A DNA stretch of 37,461 nucleotides from a virus, in IMG/VR virus record IMGVR_UViG_3300006805_000072, positions 1 to 37,461 of that record; one strand, given 5' to 3'. The translations under genes were made by a program, and so were the position numbers. Under the pieces are notes generated by a model, which was not told where the DNA came from, did no database searches, and was given only the letters and a program-made list of their open reading frames with translations. The first letter of the stretch is position 1. Every line of letters begins with the position of its first letter. This document shows positions 5,841-17,781 of the stretch, piece after piece.

Positions 5841-6146
5841 ATGGCGAAAGAATTGAAAGAATCAAAAGAGATCCTGTTGGCAGTTGCCTATGTCGGCGTC
5901 AAAGCAATCCAGGCTTACAAGCAAGCGAAGGCTGATGACAAGATCGACCTAAGCGACGTTGGTGTTGCGTTTGGTTTCTTGATGGACCCAGTCTTGAAGG
6001 CAAAGGTTGAAGCTGCAATCGAAGGCGCTGACAAACTCGGCGAAGACTTCGCAGGTGCAAACATCTTCGACATCGTGAAAGCGCTTGTTGAAGTTGAGCC
6101 GCAAGTGATGGAGCTCGTGAAAGAGATCGAAGGACTCAAGGCTTAA
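5841..6146 (+). CDS. Small phage protein in lysis block
   Basis: The product has 101 residues, helical and acidic towards the C-terminus. ILLAVAYVGVKAIQAYKQAK (residues about 10-30) is moderately hydrophobic but not a clear membrane helix. Later segments such as DLSDVGVAFGFLMDPVLKAKVEAAIEGADKL look amphipathic. Similar Ala/Lys/Glu-rich proteins of about 100 residues occur next to holins in phages and are annotated as hypothetical. Spacing of 5 and 3 bp to the neighbours shows it belongs to the lysis operon. A holin or antiholin role is possible but unproven. Confidence 0.55.
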   Translation: MAKELKESKEILLAVAYVGVKAIQAYKQAKADDKIDLSDVGVAFGFLMDPVLKAKVEAAIEGADKLGEDFAGANIFDIVKALVEVEPQVMELVKEIEGLKA

Positions 6147-7431: not shown

Positions 7432-7649
7432 GAGTCGAAGTTCCCGTCAGTCCTTGAGACGGTCACGACCTGACGCCCAGCACACTGAGCCTCGGCAGCG
7501 AGGAGATCTAACGCAAGCTCCTTGGCTTCGGCGCGTGACAACATCACAGCGAACTCCTCTTGGCCGAGGCTTACGACTATTGTCGGGACCGTCTTTCCGT
7601 TCTCGTCTCGGCCCAGTGCTACTTGAAACGCGGCGCTTTCCTTGTCCAT
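7428..7649 (-). CDS. Small protein of unknown function, minus-strand island
   Basis: The product has 73 residues on the minus strand behind a clear RBS (GAGGAG, then TTCAC and ATG). Its stop codon shares the palindrome CTAG (7428-7431) with the stop of the plus-strand endolysin, so the two genes converge with a 4-bp overlap. The protein has beta-like segments (TVPTIVVSLGQEEFAVML) followed by a helix (SRAEAKELALDLLAAEAQC). Its 5' end overlaps the 3' end of the 259-residue gene by 31 bp, so the two are probably one operon. I recognise no family. Confidence 0.6.
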   Translation of the reverse strand: MDKESAAFQVALGRDENGKTVPTIVVSLGQEEFAVMLSRAEAKELALDLLAAEAQCAGRQVVTVSRTDGNFDS

Positions 7650-8398
7650 GTGAACTCCTCAAGCCATGGCCTCCAAAGTTTCGCTAGGTCCTGATCCCCA
7701 TTGGCTTCTGGCCGATGCTTCCAGAACATCGCACCACTCAGCTTGTTTCCAACTCCAAGCGTACTCGTCCCGAGAGTTTCCGGCATAGCCCAAGAATGAA
7801 AGTACCTCGCGATCAGACTGATCGGTGTCGGCATCCATCGCCACGCAATGAAATGCTGCACGACAGCGTTGTCACAGTCAGAGTCATCCGCTGTGCGTGG
7901 AACAAACCTCATCGTCTCGTGCTTCCATCGGAACGGTGCGGCATCAAACAAGACTCCGATCAGCATCAGAAGATCAGTCAAAAGAAGCATCGGCCACAGT
8001 GGAAGCGTGAGCGGGTACAGGCATCGGATCACGAGCGACGACTGGCCCAGGAGATGGTCCTTCCAGTTCGGCGCAAAGCCAAGGCGAAGAGAAAGCTTTA
8101 AAGCCGTGGCAATCAGTGGCCGCCACGCTGAAGCGAGCCTTGCCACTATAAACGCGTTTAAGAGCTGGTCTCTCGATATCCATTTCGGATCAGACCAGAA
8201 CTCGGCTGCGCCCGCCCGTCCAGGATGTCTTCTCCACTCCCCGCCTCCAACGTAAAGCTGCCTCAGTGCGAACCGCGCAAACGGTTTGGCCGAGATCCCT
8301 TGCGACTCATATCCTGCACACCATGCCCCGGTCCGTTGCAATGTATCCCCGCCATCCATGTCGAGTGCTACCGGCAGACCGTTCTCGTCCTTGAACAT
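7619..8398 (-). CDS. Phage protein of unknown function with hydrophobic central segment
   Basis: This 259-residue protein on the minus strand follows RBS GGAGGTC. The N-terminus has ALDMDGGDTLQRTGAWCAGY, then RHPGR...EFWSDPKWISRDQLLNAF. Residues about 128-160 are strongly hydrophobic (CLYPLTLPLWPMLLLTDLLM), enough for one or two membrane spans. The C-terminus has DSDCDNAVVQHFIAW and SGAMFWKHRPEANGDQDLA. The GGD..R.G and SRDQ motifs recur in uncharacterised phage proteins I have seen. No catalytic family can be named. It is divergent from the methyltransferase gene, with 53 bp between them. Confidence 0.65.
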   Translation of the reverse strand: MFKDENGLPVALDMDGGDTLQRTGAWCAGYESQGISAKPFARFALRQLYVGGGEWRRHPGRAGAAEFWSDPKWISRDQLLNAFIVARLASAWRPLIATALKLSLRLGFAPNWKDHLLGQSSLVIRCLYPLTLPLWPMLLLTDLLMLIGVLFDAAPFRWKHETMRFVPRTADDSDCDNAVVQHFIAWRWMPTPISLIARYFHSWAMPETLGTSTLGVGNKLSGAMFWKHRPEANGDQDLAKLWRPWLEEFTWTRKAPRFK

Positions 8399-8451: not shown

Positions 8452-9765
8452 GTGAAAGAAGTTTCAATCCGTTGTGAAGGAGCTCGTTCGATCTCAATCG
8501 ATGAGCTGTTTCCGTTCCAAGACGACATCAAGACCATGAAGCCTTCGACATTAAGGAAGCTCGAGAAGGTGATCCTCGAGCAGGGGTTCTCGGAACCGAT
8601 CGCGGTCTGGGCCAATAGTCCAGACGAGAAGATGTGGATCTTGAACGGGCATCAGCGCATGACGGCACTTCAGAGCTTGAAGTCGAAAGGGTACTTCATC
8701 CCACCGATACCGGTGACGATGGTCCAGGCCGAGGATGAGCAGGAGGCAAGAAAGAAGGTGCTCACTCTCGCCTCGCAGTTTGGGGACTTTGACGGGGATA
8801 ACCTGGCTGAGTTTGTAGCAAAGGCCCAGCTTGATACCGAATGGATCAAAGACAATGCGAGGTTGGCTGCGGGGGATTTTAAACTTCCGATGCTGATGAC
8901 TCCGGTTGACGAAGAACCGCATCCAGAGCCGGAAGCGATTCCAATTGTCCATCGCGGAGAAGTTTACATTTTGGGGAACCATCGATTGATGTGCGGGGAT
9001 TCAACGTCGTCGGATGATTTTGAATTGTTGATGAATGGTTCCCGCGGCGATTTGATGTTCACATCACCGCCATACGGCGTTGGTTTGCAATACAACTCGT
9101 ACAATGACAGTTTTGAAAACACCAAATCAGTCGTCGGAAAAGTCTTGACTTGTGTTCCAAAATTTGTCGATGGCTATGTGTGTCTGAACTGGGGTGACAT
9201 TGTTTCCGGTCAAAAAATCAATGACACGAAGTTCCCAAGTCAATGGTCTTGGTTTCCATTGTATAACGCAAAATTGAATGAAAACGAATTCTGGTTGTGG
9301 GCACAGCGCATTTGGAAGAAACCACACGCGAAAGTCGCCGCACCGTGGTCAGCATCATCAAACCGAAATGCGACCGATTGGGAATATTTGTTCACATGGT
9401 CCAACGGTCTCCAAAAAATGAAGCGTCGGCAAAACGATTCACATTTTGGAATTGTTGATTCGTCGTTAGATGGACAGACAAATGTTTTGGAAAATCACCC
9501 GGGCGCATTCCCAATGGTTGTGGCAAAAAGAATTGTCGAAATTCACACGTTTGAAAATGCCAACGTCATCGATCCATTTTCTGGAACCGGCACAACATTG
9601 ATCGCATGTGAAAAAACAAAACGGCGGGGGTTCATGATGGAAATTGACCCGTTGTATTGCGGCGTAATTATTGATCGATGGGAAAAGTTTGCAGATAAGC
9701 AAGCCATCAGAGAATCAGACGGTAGACTGTGGCTCGACATTAAAGCCGAGGCTCTTTCTACCTAG
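8452..9765 (+). CDS. ParB-like domain fused to DNA methyltransferase
   Basis: The product has 437 residues from a GTG start behind RBS AGGGGAG. Residues 1-120 resemble the ParB/sulfiredoxin-type N-terminal domain, with NGHQRMTAL at about 65-73. After a linker comes a permuted beta-class methyltransferase: YILGNHRLMCGDST, then catalytic motif TSPPYG (204-209), and SAM-binding DPFSGTGTT (374-382) followed by GFMMEIDPLYC. This domain order is known for N6-adenine or N4-cytosine methylases, and TSPPY fits N4-C somewhat better. No restriction enzyme is nearby, so it probably protects phage DNA or marks it. From about 8930 the coding sequence becomes visibly richer in A/T third positions, hinting that the catalytic half has another origin. 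Confidence 0.9.
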   Translation: MKEVSIRCEGARSISIDELFPFQDDIKTMKPSTLRKLEKVILEQGFSEPIAVWANSPDEKMWILNGHQRMTALQSLKSKGYFIPPIPVTMVQAEDEQEARKKVLTLASQFGDFDGDNLAEFVAKAQLDTEWIKDNARLAAGDFKLPMLMTPVDEEPHPEPEAIPIVHRGEVYILGNHRLMCGDSTSSDDFELLMNGSRGDLMFTSPPYGVGLQYNSYNDSFENTKSVVGKVLTCVPKFVDGYVCLNWGDIVSGQKINDTKFPSQWSWFPLYNAKLNENEFWLWAQRIWKKPHAKVAAPWSASSNRNATDWEYLFTWSNGLQKMKRRQNDSHFGIVDSSLDGQTNVLENHPGAFPMVVAKRIVEIHTFENANVIDPFSGTGTTLIACEKTKRRGFMMEIDPLYCGVIIDRWEKFADKQAIRESDGRLWLDIKAEALST

Positions 9766-10222
9766 CTGGGTTCCAATCAAAGACTCGCATCTTCTGGTTC
9801 GAGTCGTAGCTCACCGTTAATTGCTGGCCGATGATTCCGTATCGGCTGGCGGTGCGCATCCATTCGCAAGGAGTGGTGCTCATGTGTGATGGAGTGATTG
9901 CGAAACCGTCAGGCGATGAAACCTGAATCGTTCCAGACTTAGAGTCGCCGCGAAGGACTGCATTGACTGAGCATCGAACAGTTCCGGTTCCAGACGGGTT
10001 CGGATAAGCGAAGATGATTGCAGTCTCTGAGTAAACGCGAACGCCGATGAGTTCCATGCTTTCATTGGTCGTTGAATCAAGCCAGTAGTCCATAATGAAG
10101 GGGGACTTTACGGCGTTGCCATTCACGAGCGCTTCTTGCTGGCCGCAACCAACCGATAGAAGTGCAATCATGGCAAGGAAAGTGAGGATCGCGATACGCA
10201 AGTCATGATCAATGTATTTCAT
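9758..10222 (-). CDS. Lipoprotein of unknown function
   Basis: This 154-residue minus-strand gene converges with the methyltransferase gene (8-bp overlap of the 3' ends). Its N-terminus is a lipoprotein signal: basic start, hydrophobic IAILTFLAMIALL and lipobox LSVGC, with Cys at about residue 26. The mature part looks beta-rich (ELIGVRVYSETAIIFAYPN, GTIQVSSPDGFAI) with Cys in TVRCSVN and TPCEW. Its start overlaps the stop of the upstream gene (ATGA). A host-envelope lipoprotein outside the lysis cassette suggests a superinfection-exclusion or envelope-modifying factor, but that is inference from location and signal only. Confidence 0.65.
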   Translation of the reverse strand: MKYIDHDLRIAILTFLAMIALLSVGCGQQEALVNGNAVKSPFIMDYWLDSTTNESMELIGVRVYSETAIIFAYPNPSGTGTVRCSVNAVLRGDSKSGTIQVSSPDGFAITPSHMSTTPCEWMRTASRYGIIGQQLTVSYDSNQKMRVFDWNPAR

Positions 10223-10449
10223 ACGAACCCGCCTTTCTGACGGTGACGAACAATCGAGGCAGCAATCTCAAGAGGATCGCGGCGAAAGAGCTTTGAGACC
10301 AATTCAACCAGAAGTGTTCCAGCCTGGAGATCGATGTTAAGCCAGTCCTTCTCTTTGATTTGAGGGTCGTGCTTTGCGATAAAGTCGACAGCCTCTCGGT
10401 AGCTTGGTCTTGGGTACGGATCGCGCTTTACTTTCTTTGCCTTCTTCAT
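10219..10449 (-). CDS. Small basic phage protein
   Basis: The product has 76 residues in the minus-strand operon, behind an AAAGG-type RBS. The N-terminus is strongly basic (KKAKKVKRDPYPRP), then REAVDFIAKHDPQIKEKDWLN and an amphipathic helix (LLVELVSKLFRRDPLEIAASI) ending RHRQKGGF. No membrane segment or recognisable domain is present. The basic tail could bind nucleic acid. It overlaps the downstream lipoprotein gene by 4 bp, and only 2 bp separate it from the upstream gene, so these are co-transcribed. Confidence 0.6.
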   Translation of the reverse strand: MKKAKKVKRDPYPRPSYREAVDFIAKHDPQIKEKDWLNIDLQAGTLLVELVSKLFRRDPLEIAASIVRHRQKGGFV

Positions 10450-10451
10450 TT

Positions 10452-10751
10452 TTAACCTTTCGCCTTGGCGATCAGGGCCTCAATTTCCTTTCTGAAAGCA
10501 TTCGTGTCCTCACGATAATGGGACTCATCGTCTGACGCTTGTGCTAAGTCTACTAAGAACGGCAAAGCTTGCTCGAGCGCCTTAAGCATATCGGGGGCAG
10601 CAGCAAACAAATTCGCGTTAGAGACGTTATCTAAAAACGATATTGTGCCGCAATCGAGCATAGCTAGTTCTTTACCGTCACGTGTCTCTATCATCGCGCA
10701 TACGCCATTGGTTCGCGTTTTAACTGTGTACGGCCCGGGTGTGTGACTCAT
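10452..10751 (-). CDS. Conserved small phage protein (SHTPGPW-type)
   Basis: This 99-residue protein starts MSHTPGPYTV and contains NANLFAAAPDMLKALEQAL. Both motifs define a very common but uncharacterised phage protein family (usually SHTPGPW... and ANA.LIAAAP.LLEAL). The first half is a small beta domain (MIETRDGKELAMLDCG), and the second is two helices ending EALIAKAKG. It is encoded in the early minus-strand operon and overlaps the 37-residue gene upstream by 4 bp. Family membership is confident from the motifs; the function is unknown. Confidence 0.75.
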   Translation of the reverse strand: MSHTPGPYTVKTRTNGVCAMIETRDGKELAMLDCGTISFLDNVSNANLFAAAPDMLKALEQALPFLVDLAQASDDESHYREDTNAFRKEIEALIAKAKG

Positions 10752-10861
10752 TTCATACCCCTTAAAATCTTTCTCAGATTTTCAGCCATGCCCCAGGCGC
10801 CCATCGCCTCGAGCCTTTGGATCATTGTGTGAAGCCGTTCAACTGATTCGCTCATGGTCAT
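10748..10861 (-). CDS. Very small helical protein (37 aa)
   Basis: The frame is open further upstream to 11014, but the strong RBS AAGGGAGAG sits directly before ATGACCATG, so the likely start is at 10861 (or the second ATG at 10855). The product is MTMSESVERLHTMIQRLEAM plus 17 more residues, a single helical hairpin or one long amphipathic helix. It is the first gene of the minus-strand operon 9758-10861. No family is recognised. Confidence 0.5.
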   Translation of the reverse strand: MTMSESVERLHTMIQRLEAMGAWGMAENLRKILRGMK

Positions 10862-11045
10862 CTCTCCCTTGTGTGAAACCAGTATCGCACAGCAGGATAG
10901 AAGTTGCCAGTAAAGTTGCCAGTAATCCCAATTTGAGACAGCCATGCGTATATTCGAGATGAGGTCGAATAGGTTTAAGGTCGTGACAGATCTTGTAAGA
11001 TTTACTCGGTGCACCGTGAATTTATTTCAATGGCTCAGAGCGAAA
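10862..11045. promoter_or_regulatory. Divergent control region with tandem 12-mer and dyad
   Basis: This stretch has no credible gene and lies upstream of both the minus-strand operon and the plus-strand RNA/early operon. It contains a perfect tandem repeat of AAGTTGCCAGTA (10901-10924), and the 10-bp palindrome CGGTGCACCG (11007-11016) between a possible -35 TTGTAA (10993-10998) and a weak -10. The longer string ACTCGGTGCACCG recurs with one change at 16070-16082 in another gene-free stretch. The XRE-type regulator encoded at 11892 is an obvious candidate to act here. Promoter calls are weak; the repeats are certain. Confidence 0.45.
10901..10924. repeat. Perfect 12-bp tandem direct repeat
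   Basis: AAGTTGCCAGTA occurs twice back to back, 40 bp upstream of the minus-strand operon start at 10861. It could be a two-site operator or an iteron-like element; two units are few for an origin. Confidence 0.8.
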
Positions 11046-11625
11046 GACCTTACCCTCCCCTTTCGGGGAGGGTTGGATGTGTTTGGCGCAACATCTCAAG
11101 GAATGGCTCAAACTACGGCGGCTAACTCTTAACCGCAAGTGAAAACCATTCCTTGAGATGCGGCACAGCACTGGTCGCCGGTAATAGTCTCGAGTTCAAA
11201 CAAGGCCGCCGATCAGTACGACAGAGAGGAACCCGCAAGGGGGAACCCAGAGCCCATCAGAGCGACGAGCGATGACGAAGGGACAGGGAGCTAATTCTCG
11301 GCTTGAGTGATGCGAGTGACTCGCTATCAACGCTCACCGCTTTGTCGTAACGCTGAAACCAAAAACTGGTAGTGGGATCACTACGTCCTGAATCAACCAC
11401 GATCTTTGTAAAGCGGGTCTTATTGTTCCCGTTTCACCGAACCGTTCTCCACGACCTCCACACTGATCGGCCGCGCGGGGGCCGGTCACGAGCCCCATAA
11501 GCGCAGGCCGTTTCAGTGGTGGTGGGCGGTGGGGAACAGTAGTAAACCAGTCATTCTTCAATCCCTACCGCGCTCCGCTTGGTTTGCTTGCGAGCTCGAG
11601 TACGAGCATCGCCAAGCGTGACGCA
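11046..11625 (+). ncRNA. Large structured RNA candidate (about 580 nt)
   Basis: No gene with an RBS fits here, yet self-complementarity is dense. Helices: 11052-11060/11065-11073 (9 bp, loop TTTC); 11092-11106/11146-11160 (15 bp perfect) enclosing 11118-11125/11129-11136; 11213-11226/11340-11356 (14 bp around a 3-nt bulge) enclosing a CCC-GCAA-GGG tetraloop (11232-11241), 11267-11275/11327-11335 and 11312-11316/11320-11324; 11369-11374/11379-11384; 11410-11417/11428-11434; 11444-11452/11529-11537 enclosing 11464-11472/11480-11488; 11576-11582/11612-11618 enclosing 11591-11598/11603-11611. Three helices (11218 arm, 11444 arm, 11465 arm) need G-U pairs that exist only if the plus strand is transcribed; one (11118) favours the minus strand. 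Size, phage context and complexity recall GOLLD- or ROOL-type ornate RNAs, but I could not match a consensus. Confidence 0.55.
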
Positions 11626-11665
11626 ATGAAATACAAAATTAATCCTTTGAAAATGAAATGAAATG

Positions 11666-11697: not shown

Positions 11698-11880
11698 ATG
11701 TTCAATTACATATCGATGGCGCTGATAGCGCTGTCACAGATCGCATTGATAATCACGCACGTCAGGTTTCAGAAGTTGGTTGTTCGTTTTCTCGCCAATG
11801 TCTCAAAGACCGAGGACCTGATCCATCAGGTCGTTGAAGATCACGATCAAAGAATCAAGAAACTAGAATCACTCATTTAA
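11698..11880 (+). CDS. Small single-pass membrane protein
   Basis: This 60-residue protein is the first of the early plus-strand operon, behind a very strong RBS (GGGAGGGG). Residues 4-24 (YISMALIALSQIALIITHVRF) are a transmembrane helix. The rest is a cytoplasmic-looking coiled-coil tail (DLIHQVVEDHDQRIKKLESL). It is followed by 11 bp and the XRE regulator. It could be a membrane-targeted host-takeover or exclusion protein; the family is not recognised. Confidence 0.6.
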   Translation: MFNYISMALIALSQIALIITHVRFQKLVVRFLANVSKTEDLIHQVVEDHDQRIKKLESLI

Positions 11881-11891
11881 AGGAGAATGCG

Positions 11892-12176
11892 TTGAAGCTC
11901 ACAGAGTTCGGGCAGAGGCTCGAGACAATCCAGAAACAGAAGTACATCAGTGACCGAGACCTTTCGCGAAAGCTTGGAATCGCTCAACCAAACATCAATC
12001 AGATCAAATACTACACAGCACGCCCAAGGCTTCAGACAATCAAGAAGTACGCAAAGGCCCTTGGCGTTGACTTCGCTGAGCTTGATACCGCCAACGATCC
12101 AATGGTCGCCGGTCACGTAAAGATCTGGATGACGGTTGAAGTTGGGAGCACGTCGAGAAAGATCAGGGTTCTATGA
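11892..12176 (+). CDS. XRE-family helix-turn-helix regulator
   Basis: The product has 94 residues from a TTG start: the nearby ATG at 11887 runs into a stop after two codons, and RBS AAAGGAGA fits the TTG. Residues about 1-62 are a Cro/C1-type HTH: LTEFGQRLETIQKQK, ISDRDLSRKLGIAQPNINQIK, then RLQTIKKYAKALGVDFAEL. The C-terminal 30 residues form a short beta extension (VKIWMTVEVGS). The size is Cro-like, without a cleavable LexA/CI dimerisation domain. It probably controls the early operons and may bind the dyads at 11007 and 16073. No integrase was found, so it is not proof of lysogeny. Confidence 0.8.
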   Translation: MKLTEFGQRLETIQKQKYISDRDLSRKLGIAQPNINQIKYYTARPRLQTIKKYAKALGVDFAELDTANDPMVAGHVKIWMTVEVGSTSRKIRVL

Positions 12177-13322: not shown

Positions 13323-13342
13323 CATGATATTAAAATGATTTT

Positions 13343-13411
13343 GACCTCCCCGCTCGTCAGCACTGGAAGCTGTAGCGCAACAGAGAACAGGCACGGGCGG
13401 AGAGGTCTTTT
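13343..13411 (+). terminator. Long-stem terminator (or terminator-ended small RNA)
   Basis: GACCTC (13343-13348) pairs with GAGGTC (13402-13407). After one mismatch, CCGCTCGT (13350-13357) pairs with ACGGGCGG (13393-13400), including one plus-strand G-U pair, giving 14 bp in all. The 35-nt apical part holds CAGC/GCTG. TTTTAATTT follows immediately. It closes the early operon 11698-13322. Confidence 0.7.
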
Positions 13412-13553
13412 AATTTGAGGTACCACTGACGCTGAGTCCGTCCGGACCATATCCTGTAACCAATCAGGTGGCAGAGCCGGGTAGCGCACACAAGGATCAG
13501 AGCTGGCCCAATGCGTGGCCCCGGCAACACGGGGCACTTGAGAGGAGTGAGGG
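13412..13553 (+). promoter_or_regulatory. Structured leader of the small-gene operon
   Basis: These 142 bp lie after the terminator and have no gene. They contain small hairpins (GTCC/GGAC near 13440, CCTG/CAGG near 13455) and a perfect 6-bp stem GCCCCG (13518-13523)/CGGGGC (13530-13535). RBS GAGAGGAG and ATG 13554 follow. I found no strong sigma70 promoter. It may be a regulated 5' leader or the body of another RNA. Confidence 0.4.
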
Positions 13554-17184: not shown

Positions 17185-17781
17185 ATGAGATCACTGCTTA
17201 AGAAGCTAGCGCTCAAAATACTTTCAACCTATCCAGTTCAATTCTTTCTGTCGCGTATCCTACCGCGAATTCGATTCTCAACATCACCGCCAGAGATCAC
17301 CGGCCAAGAATGGCAAAGCTTCATTGCGATGATCAAGCCTGGCGATCTCGTCTTCTCTGTCGATCGTTCAAAGCTTTCGTCTGTGTTGATTCCTGGAGAG
17401 TGGGATCATGTCGGCATCGTTTCAGAAGACTCGATGATAGTTGAGGCCCACTTTCCGAAGGTTAGAAAGATCCATCCATTCGACTTCTGCCACACGTCCG
17501 ACGCAGTCGGAGTGCTTAGACCATTACCTGCAACAGCCGCGTCAATTGCATCTCGGTGCGACAGCTTCATTGGTATTGGATACGATACGCTATTCAGGAA
17601 AGGAGCTGAGTCGCTTTATTGCTCTGAGCTTGTTTGGCAGTGCGATCAAGATAACACACTTGGCTTTGATACTTCGGACGCCGTAGGCCTTGGCATCGAA
17701 TACCTGTCGCCAGATGGTCTGTGGGATTCAGTGAACAATATCGGCCGCACGAGGATAGGTGAGCTAGATGGCATTCAATAA
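17185..17781 (+). CDS. YiiX/YaeF-like papain-fold hydrolase
   Basis: The product has 198 residues. KPGDLVFSVD (51-60), EWDHVGIV (72-79), VEAH (86-89) and LYCSELVWQ (144-152) give the conserved His-75, Glu-87 and Cys-146 of the circularly permuted NlpC/P60 (YiiX/YebB) family. The first 25 residues are hydrophobic and basic (LLKKLALKILSTYPVQFFLS), possibly membrane-associating. Relatives cleave amide or ester bonds in peptidoglycan peptides or lipids. Unlike the candidate endolysin at 6754, this gene stands between the ATPase and the packaging genes. Its RBS is in a hairpin, so expression is probably restrained. The role (entry, envelope change, host takeover) is inferred. Confidence 0.8.
   Translation: MRSLLKKLALKILSTYPVQFFLSRILPRIRFSTSPPEITGQEWQSFIAMIKPGDLVFSVDRSKLSSVLIPGEWDHVGIVSEDSMIVEAHFPKVRKIHPFDFCHTSDAVGVLRPLPATAASIASRCDSFIGIGYDTLFRKGAESLYCSELVWQCDQDNTLGFDTSDAVGLGIEYLSPDGLWDSVNNIGRTRIGELDGIQ

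Follow-up and report, generated by a model that had tools for sequence, protein, structure and literature searches.

A probable conserved two-hairpin RNA element in the gene-free gap between divergent early operons of an uncultured phage

One question raised by the genome of an uncultured phage (IMG/VR virus record IMGVR_UViG_3300006805_000072, whose 37,461 bases make up the whole stretch analysed and are called the window below) is what occupies the long gap that separates its two divergent sets of early genes. The phage is tailed, with terminase, capsid and tape-measure genes on the right side of the window, and a ParB-like/DNA methyltransferase protein is encoded at 8452-9765. The leftward genes lie at 9758-10858, and the rightward genes start at 11698 on the plus strand, where a 60-aa small protein is followed by a Cro/CI-type helix-turn-helix regulator (11892-12176). 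A sequence-only reading of this DNA had seen no credible gene between 10862 and 11697, and this holds for all 836 nt, as a coding-score scan returned zero ORFs above the cut-off between 10449 and 11892. The gap is best explained as the control region of the leftward and rightward early operons, between which it lies. The same reading had gone further and proposed that the gap encodes a large, ornate RNA reminiscent of the GOLLD and ROOL RNAs of phages, and it is this proposal that the folding and comparative evidence bears on.

Compared with shuffled sequences, the whole gap folds with a z of -7.0 on the plus strand and -5.8 on the minus strand, and three of the five lowest folding z values in a genome-wide scan of 311 windows fall inside it. 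The structure, which had been drawn across the region, is concentrated in two parts: the 5' segment at 11010-11165 (z -8.0 plus, -9.5 minus) and the 3' segment at 11400-11645 (z -5.9 plus, -4.0 minus, with a sliding-window z of -4.9 that is the genome minimum) both exceed shuffles, whereas 10862-11010 (z -1.1) and the middle stretch at 11165-11400 (z -0.6 plus, 0.0 minus) do not. The individual stems that had been named can be found in the sequence. The perfect 15-bp stem 11092-11106/11146-11160 is present, in a gap whose 60 shuffles gave a longest stem of 9 bp, and pairing is confirmed in the sequence for 11444-11452/11529-11537 and 11576-11582/11612-11618, which fall in the nested long hairpin (11444-11537) and the hairpins near 11570-11624 of the 3' segment. 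The 14-bp stem of the middle stretch is also there with its enclosed hairpins, but random sequence of the same composition gives likewise. Two 13-nt stretches, at 11205-11217 and 11462-11474, are 92% complementary; pairing between them would be in competition with local stems and could bring the middle and 3' parts together. G-U pairs had been taken to point to the plus strand, a weak argument given that the minus strand of both segments folds about equally, and folding energies cannot tell the strand.

Evidence from relatives is provided by a single sibling. Relatives were sought through AAA_24, the terminase, the capsid, the methyltransferase and the proteins at 7619-8398 and 5841-6146, and scans of viral contigs and genomes identified one phage with full synteny, IMGVR_UViG_3300016484_000437 (loci L007 and L027), with identities of 79% for the capsid, 68% for the terminase and 45% for the methyltransferase. 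A search of genome contigs yielded no relatives, other capsid relatives have different early regions, and no cultured member was found for the family, which consists of uncultured siphophages. An identical stretch of 13,230 bases, surrounding a distant methyltransferase relative, is shared by the viral contigs L076 and L077, which come from different metagenomes. The sibling has the methyltransferase, leftward genes with their own promoter, a gap and rightward genes in the same arrangement, and its gap, at the syntenic place, is gene-free and about 860 bp long. The two gaps show no similarity to one another by blastn. Searched with blastn in 50,697 phage records, the gap and its 5' and 3' segments returned only short, chance-level matches, as did the gap when searched in 72,556 plasmids and the sibling gap when searched in phage records.

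Homology was detected by a placement test that aligned pieces of the window in turn with all windows of the sibling genome, on either strand (2,774 windows). The top-ranking window for 11010-11165 is the syntenic place on the same strand (z 6.1-6.4), and the leftward promoter segment at 10840-10939 likewise ranks first at its syntenic counterpart, with a z of 6.5. When 100-nt segments across the gap were placed in this way, clear sequence conservation was limited to the leftward promoter and 11000-11139; the alignable plus-strand stretch, 10996-11178, matches sibling L007:626-825 at about 60% identity, and the alignment of the gaps is rich in indels. From ~11178 to 11640 the placement test found no recognisable conservation in the sibling, and the 3' segment at 11400-11645 has no syntenic match there.

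Within the conserved part lie two adjacent hairpins, P2 and P3. P2 (11038-11089, plus strand) is a long hairpin of short stems and small internal loops, with 19 pairs and an apical 9-bp stem capped by a TTTC loop, and P3 (11092-11160, plus strand) consists of the 15-bp stem, an internal loop, a 3-bp stem, a second internal loop and an apical hairpin. Separate folds of the two phage sequences agree on this order of elements, with the short stems and small internal loops of P2 followed by the outer stem, 3-bp stem and apical hairpin of P3; the sibling P3 keeps the layout with an outer stem of 6 bp, and the letters ACTACGG...AACCG...AACCA are conserved in it. The two-sequence consensus fold of P2 has a z between -5.3 and -5.75. 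It contains four compensatory changes that are two-sided and none that are inconsistent, and among 343 same-size control blocks taken from genes that are collinear in the two phages the best z is -4.08 and none has four two-sided changes. Furthermore, an Infernal covariance model built from the window's sequence alone and run unfiltered on the whole sibling genome places its top match at L027 14628-14750, plus strand (21.0 bits, E 0.004, a rough value from a shortened calibration), with the runner-up at 10.5 bits (E 0.75, equally rough). In the model's alignment, which is fitted to the structure and leans towards it, P2 keeps 17 of 19 pairs, five of them with two-sided changes, and P3 keeps 16 of 24, six of them with two-sided changes; seven P3 pairs are missing in the sibling because its outer stem is shorter.

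Because only two sequences exist, the covariation comes from one pair, and covariation in related phages, a check proposed with the sequence-only reading, was obtained for P2/P3 in one sibling and nowhere else. The window-only covariance model gave no match in 60 other records, a profile HMM gave no credible match on the collected loci, and the motif TTTG..GCRCAACA..ACTACGG has 58 matches in viral contigs that, besides the sibling, appear by eye to be chance or repeated protein-coding sequence. Taken with the syntenic homology, the covariance-model match and the compensatory changes make it very probable that P2/P3 is genuine as a conserved, structured element, and support the earlier suggestion of a structured RNA that fits no known consensus for the interval 11038-11160. 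The element is apparently undescribed, as far as Rfam 15 and the searched phage and plasmid records tell, and with its two members it is a plausible new RNA element.

Could the folding be a by-product of a former gene? The gap still has short ORFs that cannot be assigned, as decayed coding sequence would, but there is no coding signal in it, and both the indel-rich alignment with the sibling and the compensatory changes make such an origin highly improbable.

A different possibility is that the hairpins mark a site that works as DNA, and the gap does carry signals of this kind. The leftward-operon promoter (10881-10909, minus strand) has a -10 of GATACT (10881-10886), a 17-nt spacer and a -35-like TGGCAA (10904-10909), with TTGACA-N17-CATACT (10/12) at the syntenic site in the sibling. 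Its -35 is overlapped by an exact tandem repeat of two copies of AAGTTGCCAGTA (10901-10924), likely to be a repressor operator. Directly upstream of the hairpins, at 10993-11030, lies a 38-bp imperfect palindrome centred on GGTGCACC, with arms that are 74% complementary; this is a possible operator, and no such palindrome was seen in the sibling. The sibling gap has a 23-nt direct repeat with a GGAGATTGCGTCCG core (L007 855-877 and 1132-1154, 277 nt apart) that has no counterpart seen here.

Repeats were also encountered at two other places. A second gene-free spot in the window, at 13335-13425, has a long hairpin (ATTAAAA..GACCTC...GAGGTC..TTTTAAT) with a T-run, and its inner part holds AGCGCAACA, which resembles GGCGCAACA beside P2; the sibling has nothing that matches this hairpin significantly. 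The early control gap (L066 15640-16750) of G009, a phage related more distantly through its capsid, contains several GATTTCAACCATTTA-like repeats and a nested inverted repeat of about 110 nt (ATGAAATGGTC...GACCATTTCAT). That gap was considered as a comparable RNA and rejected, since genes and operator-like repeats are present in it alongside the structure.

A DNA-level element, be it a replication origin, a set of operators or some other site at which inverted repeats serve as double-stranded binding sites or extruded hairpins, would suit the position between divergent operons beside a Cro/CI-type regulator gene, the palindrome and tandem repeats nearby, the many operator-like repeats and nested inverted repeat in the early control gap of the distant phage, and the roughly equal folding of both strands. 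We regard it as unlikely, since both hairpins contain internal loops, 39 nt are enclosed by P3, and the pairing of each is kept by two-sided changes as the sequence shifts, which protein-binding palindromes do not need.

The strand of the structured RNA deserves separate consideration. A minus-strand RNA, whether antisense or part of a leader located far upstream of the leftward operon, would be consistent with the fold of the 5' segment, which is as good or better on that strand (z -9.5), and with the terminator-like sites of the gap, all of which are on the minus strand. Set against this, the leftward operon's own conserved promoter lies downstream of the hairpins, the covariance model, built for the plus strand, picks out the sibling site on that same strand, and one P2 pair changes from C-G to a G-U on the plus strand that would be a mismatch on the minus strand. 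A minus-strand origin is very unlikely on balance.

What, then, of the large RNA that was originally proposed? A stand-alone long noncoding phage RNA of the GOLLD/ROOL/ICP1 kind, spanning about 11020-11640, would be transcribed in infection, form one folded body and act in trans or in an RNA-only assembly. Its size and ORF-less setting, the z of the whole gap, the precedent of phage ICP1 (PMC7567579) and folds of both phages that bring the ends together are in its favour, and the strong 3' segment keeps the reading alive. The whole-RNA closing helix seen in the folds of both phages was rejected, however, as 24 of 60 shuffles (of this gap only) do as well, and a whole-length structural alignment of both gaps scores no better than shuffles. 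The Sankoff-type aligner behind that score was dropped because it did not discriminate and left the syntenic site unranked, and it was replaced by the sequence-only placement and Infernal tests. Moreover, the middle is at chance, no conservation is detectable beyond ~11178, and the downstream part of the sibling's gap folds little better than shuffles (z -1.2). Because the closing helix, the whole-length alignment and the sibling's downstream fold are at or near shuffles, what the evidence shows is a two-hairpin module and not a large, ornate RNA; we consider the stand-alone RNA doubtful. A new large-RNA class is only possible. In its more specific form, noncoding phage RNAs of ~620 nt with no relationship to GOLLD or ROOL would be made from the control region of divergent early operons, anchored at the 5' end by the two conserved hairpins and continuing into a structured body that evolves fast; this form is decidedly unlikely.

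The gap was also compared with known RNA classes. HEARO and group I and II introns are associated with an HNH, IscB-like or intron-encoded protein, none of which was found among the scanned genes, and GOLLD is often near phage tRNA genes, of which an ARAGORN search found 0 in the whole window. With Rfam 15, GOLLD, ROOL and HEARO included, cmscan gave no match in the window, in the gap scanned separately under lax filters or, at the gathering threshold, in the sibling. The check with HEARO and group I/II intron models that accompanied the sequence-only reading was run and gave no match in the gap, the sole stretch-wide match being sub-threshold and at 17241. The likeness to GOLLD and ROOL that remains is one of phage setting, long ORF-less gap, many predicted helices and unknown function, without a match to the Rfam models, tRNA genes or conservation past ~11178. 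In GOLLD the 3' region is the conserved part and the 5' region is less conserved (PMC12286853), whereas here conservation is at the 5' end (~125-180 nt) and is not detectable in the 3' part.

ICP1, a phage with no tRNAs, has as its most abundant transcript by RNA-seq an ~800-nt RNA without ORFs, which lies by the lysis cluster in an ORF-less space of ~1 kb (PMC7567579). The two cases share a long gene-free stretch in a phage without tRNAs and with no named RNA class, and differ in that the ICP1 transcript was measured whereas the present RNA is predicted from sequence, and in that the gap here lies between divergent early operons. Regulatory RNAs of the P4/P1/N15 type, also located in immunity or early control regions, are complementary to gene leaders; in contrast, the gap is not complementary to multiple sites elsewhere in the genome, and its one 15-nt match is inside a coding gene.

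The explanation that we favour, tentatively and with rather less than even confidence in the mechanism as a whole, is that the gap encodes a long leader of the rightward transcript with a cis-acting P2/P3 module. Rightward transcription across the gap would yield an untranslated leader of ~600-700 nt, whose promoter-proximal part would fold into P2 and P3 as a functional unit, and the downstream leader would be under much weaker sequence constraint. The module would most likely act in cis on the nascent early transcript, and might do so either by binding a regulatory protein or by attaching to RNA polymerase and helping it to pass pauses or terminators further downstream. A leader is preferred over a discrete trans-acting RNA because the plus strand from the hairpins to the first rightward gene at 11698 showed no site resembling a terminator, and because conservation is confined to the presumed promoter-proximal part. 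Against this explanation, the covariation comes from a single pair of sequences, no sigma70-type promoter was recognised on the plus strand upstream of P2, and the strong 3' segment (z -5.9) is not accounted for.

Antitermination RNAs of the put type bind RNA polymerase at its beta' zinc-binding domain and so cause terminators to be read through, and of known elements that work in such a place put would be the nearest. The put element of phage HK022 is ~70 nt long and consists of two stem-loops in early transcripts that modify RNA polymerase (PMC9378689). Like putL and putR, P2/P3 is a pair of adjacent stem-loops in a phage control region and in a predicted early transcript, and the likeness is one of layout, an analogy and not membership. 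The module here is longer, at ~125 nt, and has several internal loops, and the ~540 nt from P3 to the first gene would be a very long leader for a put-like element. Furthermore, only one plus-strand terminator-like site was found in the right operon, so that little is visible for an antiterminator to overcome.

The analysis thus adds a covariation-supported two-hairpin element to this phage family, and narrows the region of interest from 800 nt to ~125 nt. Structured RNAs in the early control regions of phages set transcription programmes, as nut and put do, or are among the long phage RNAs, which are poorly understood.
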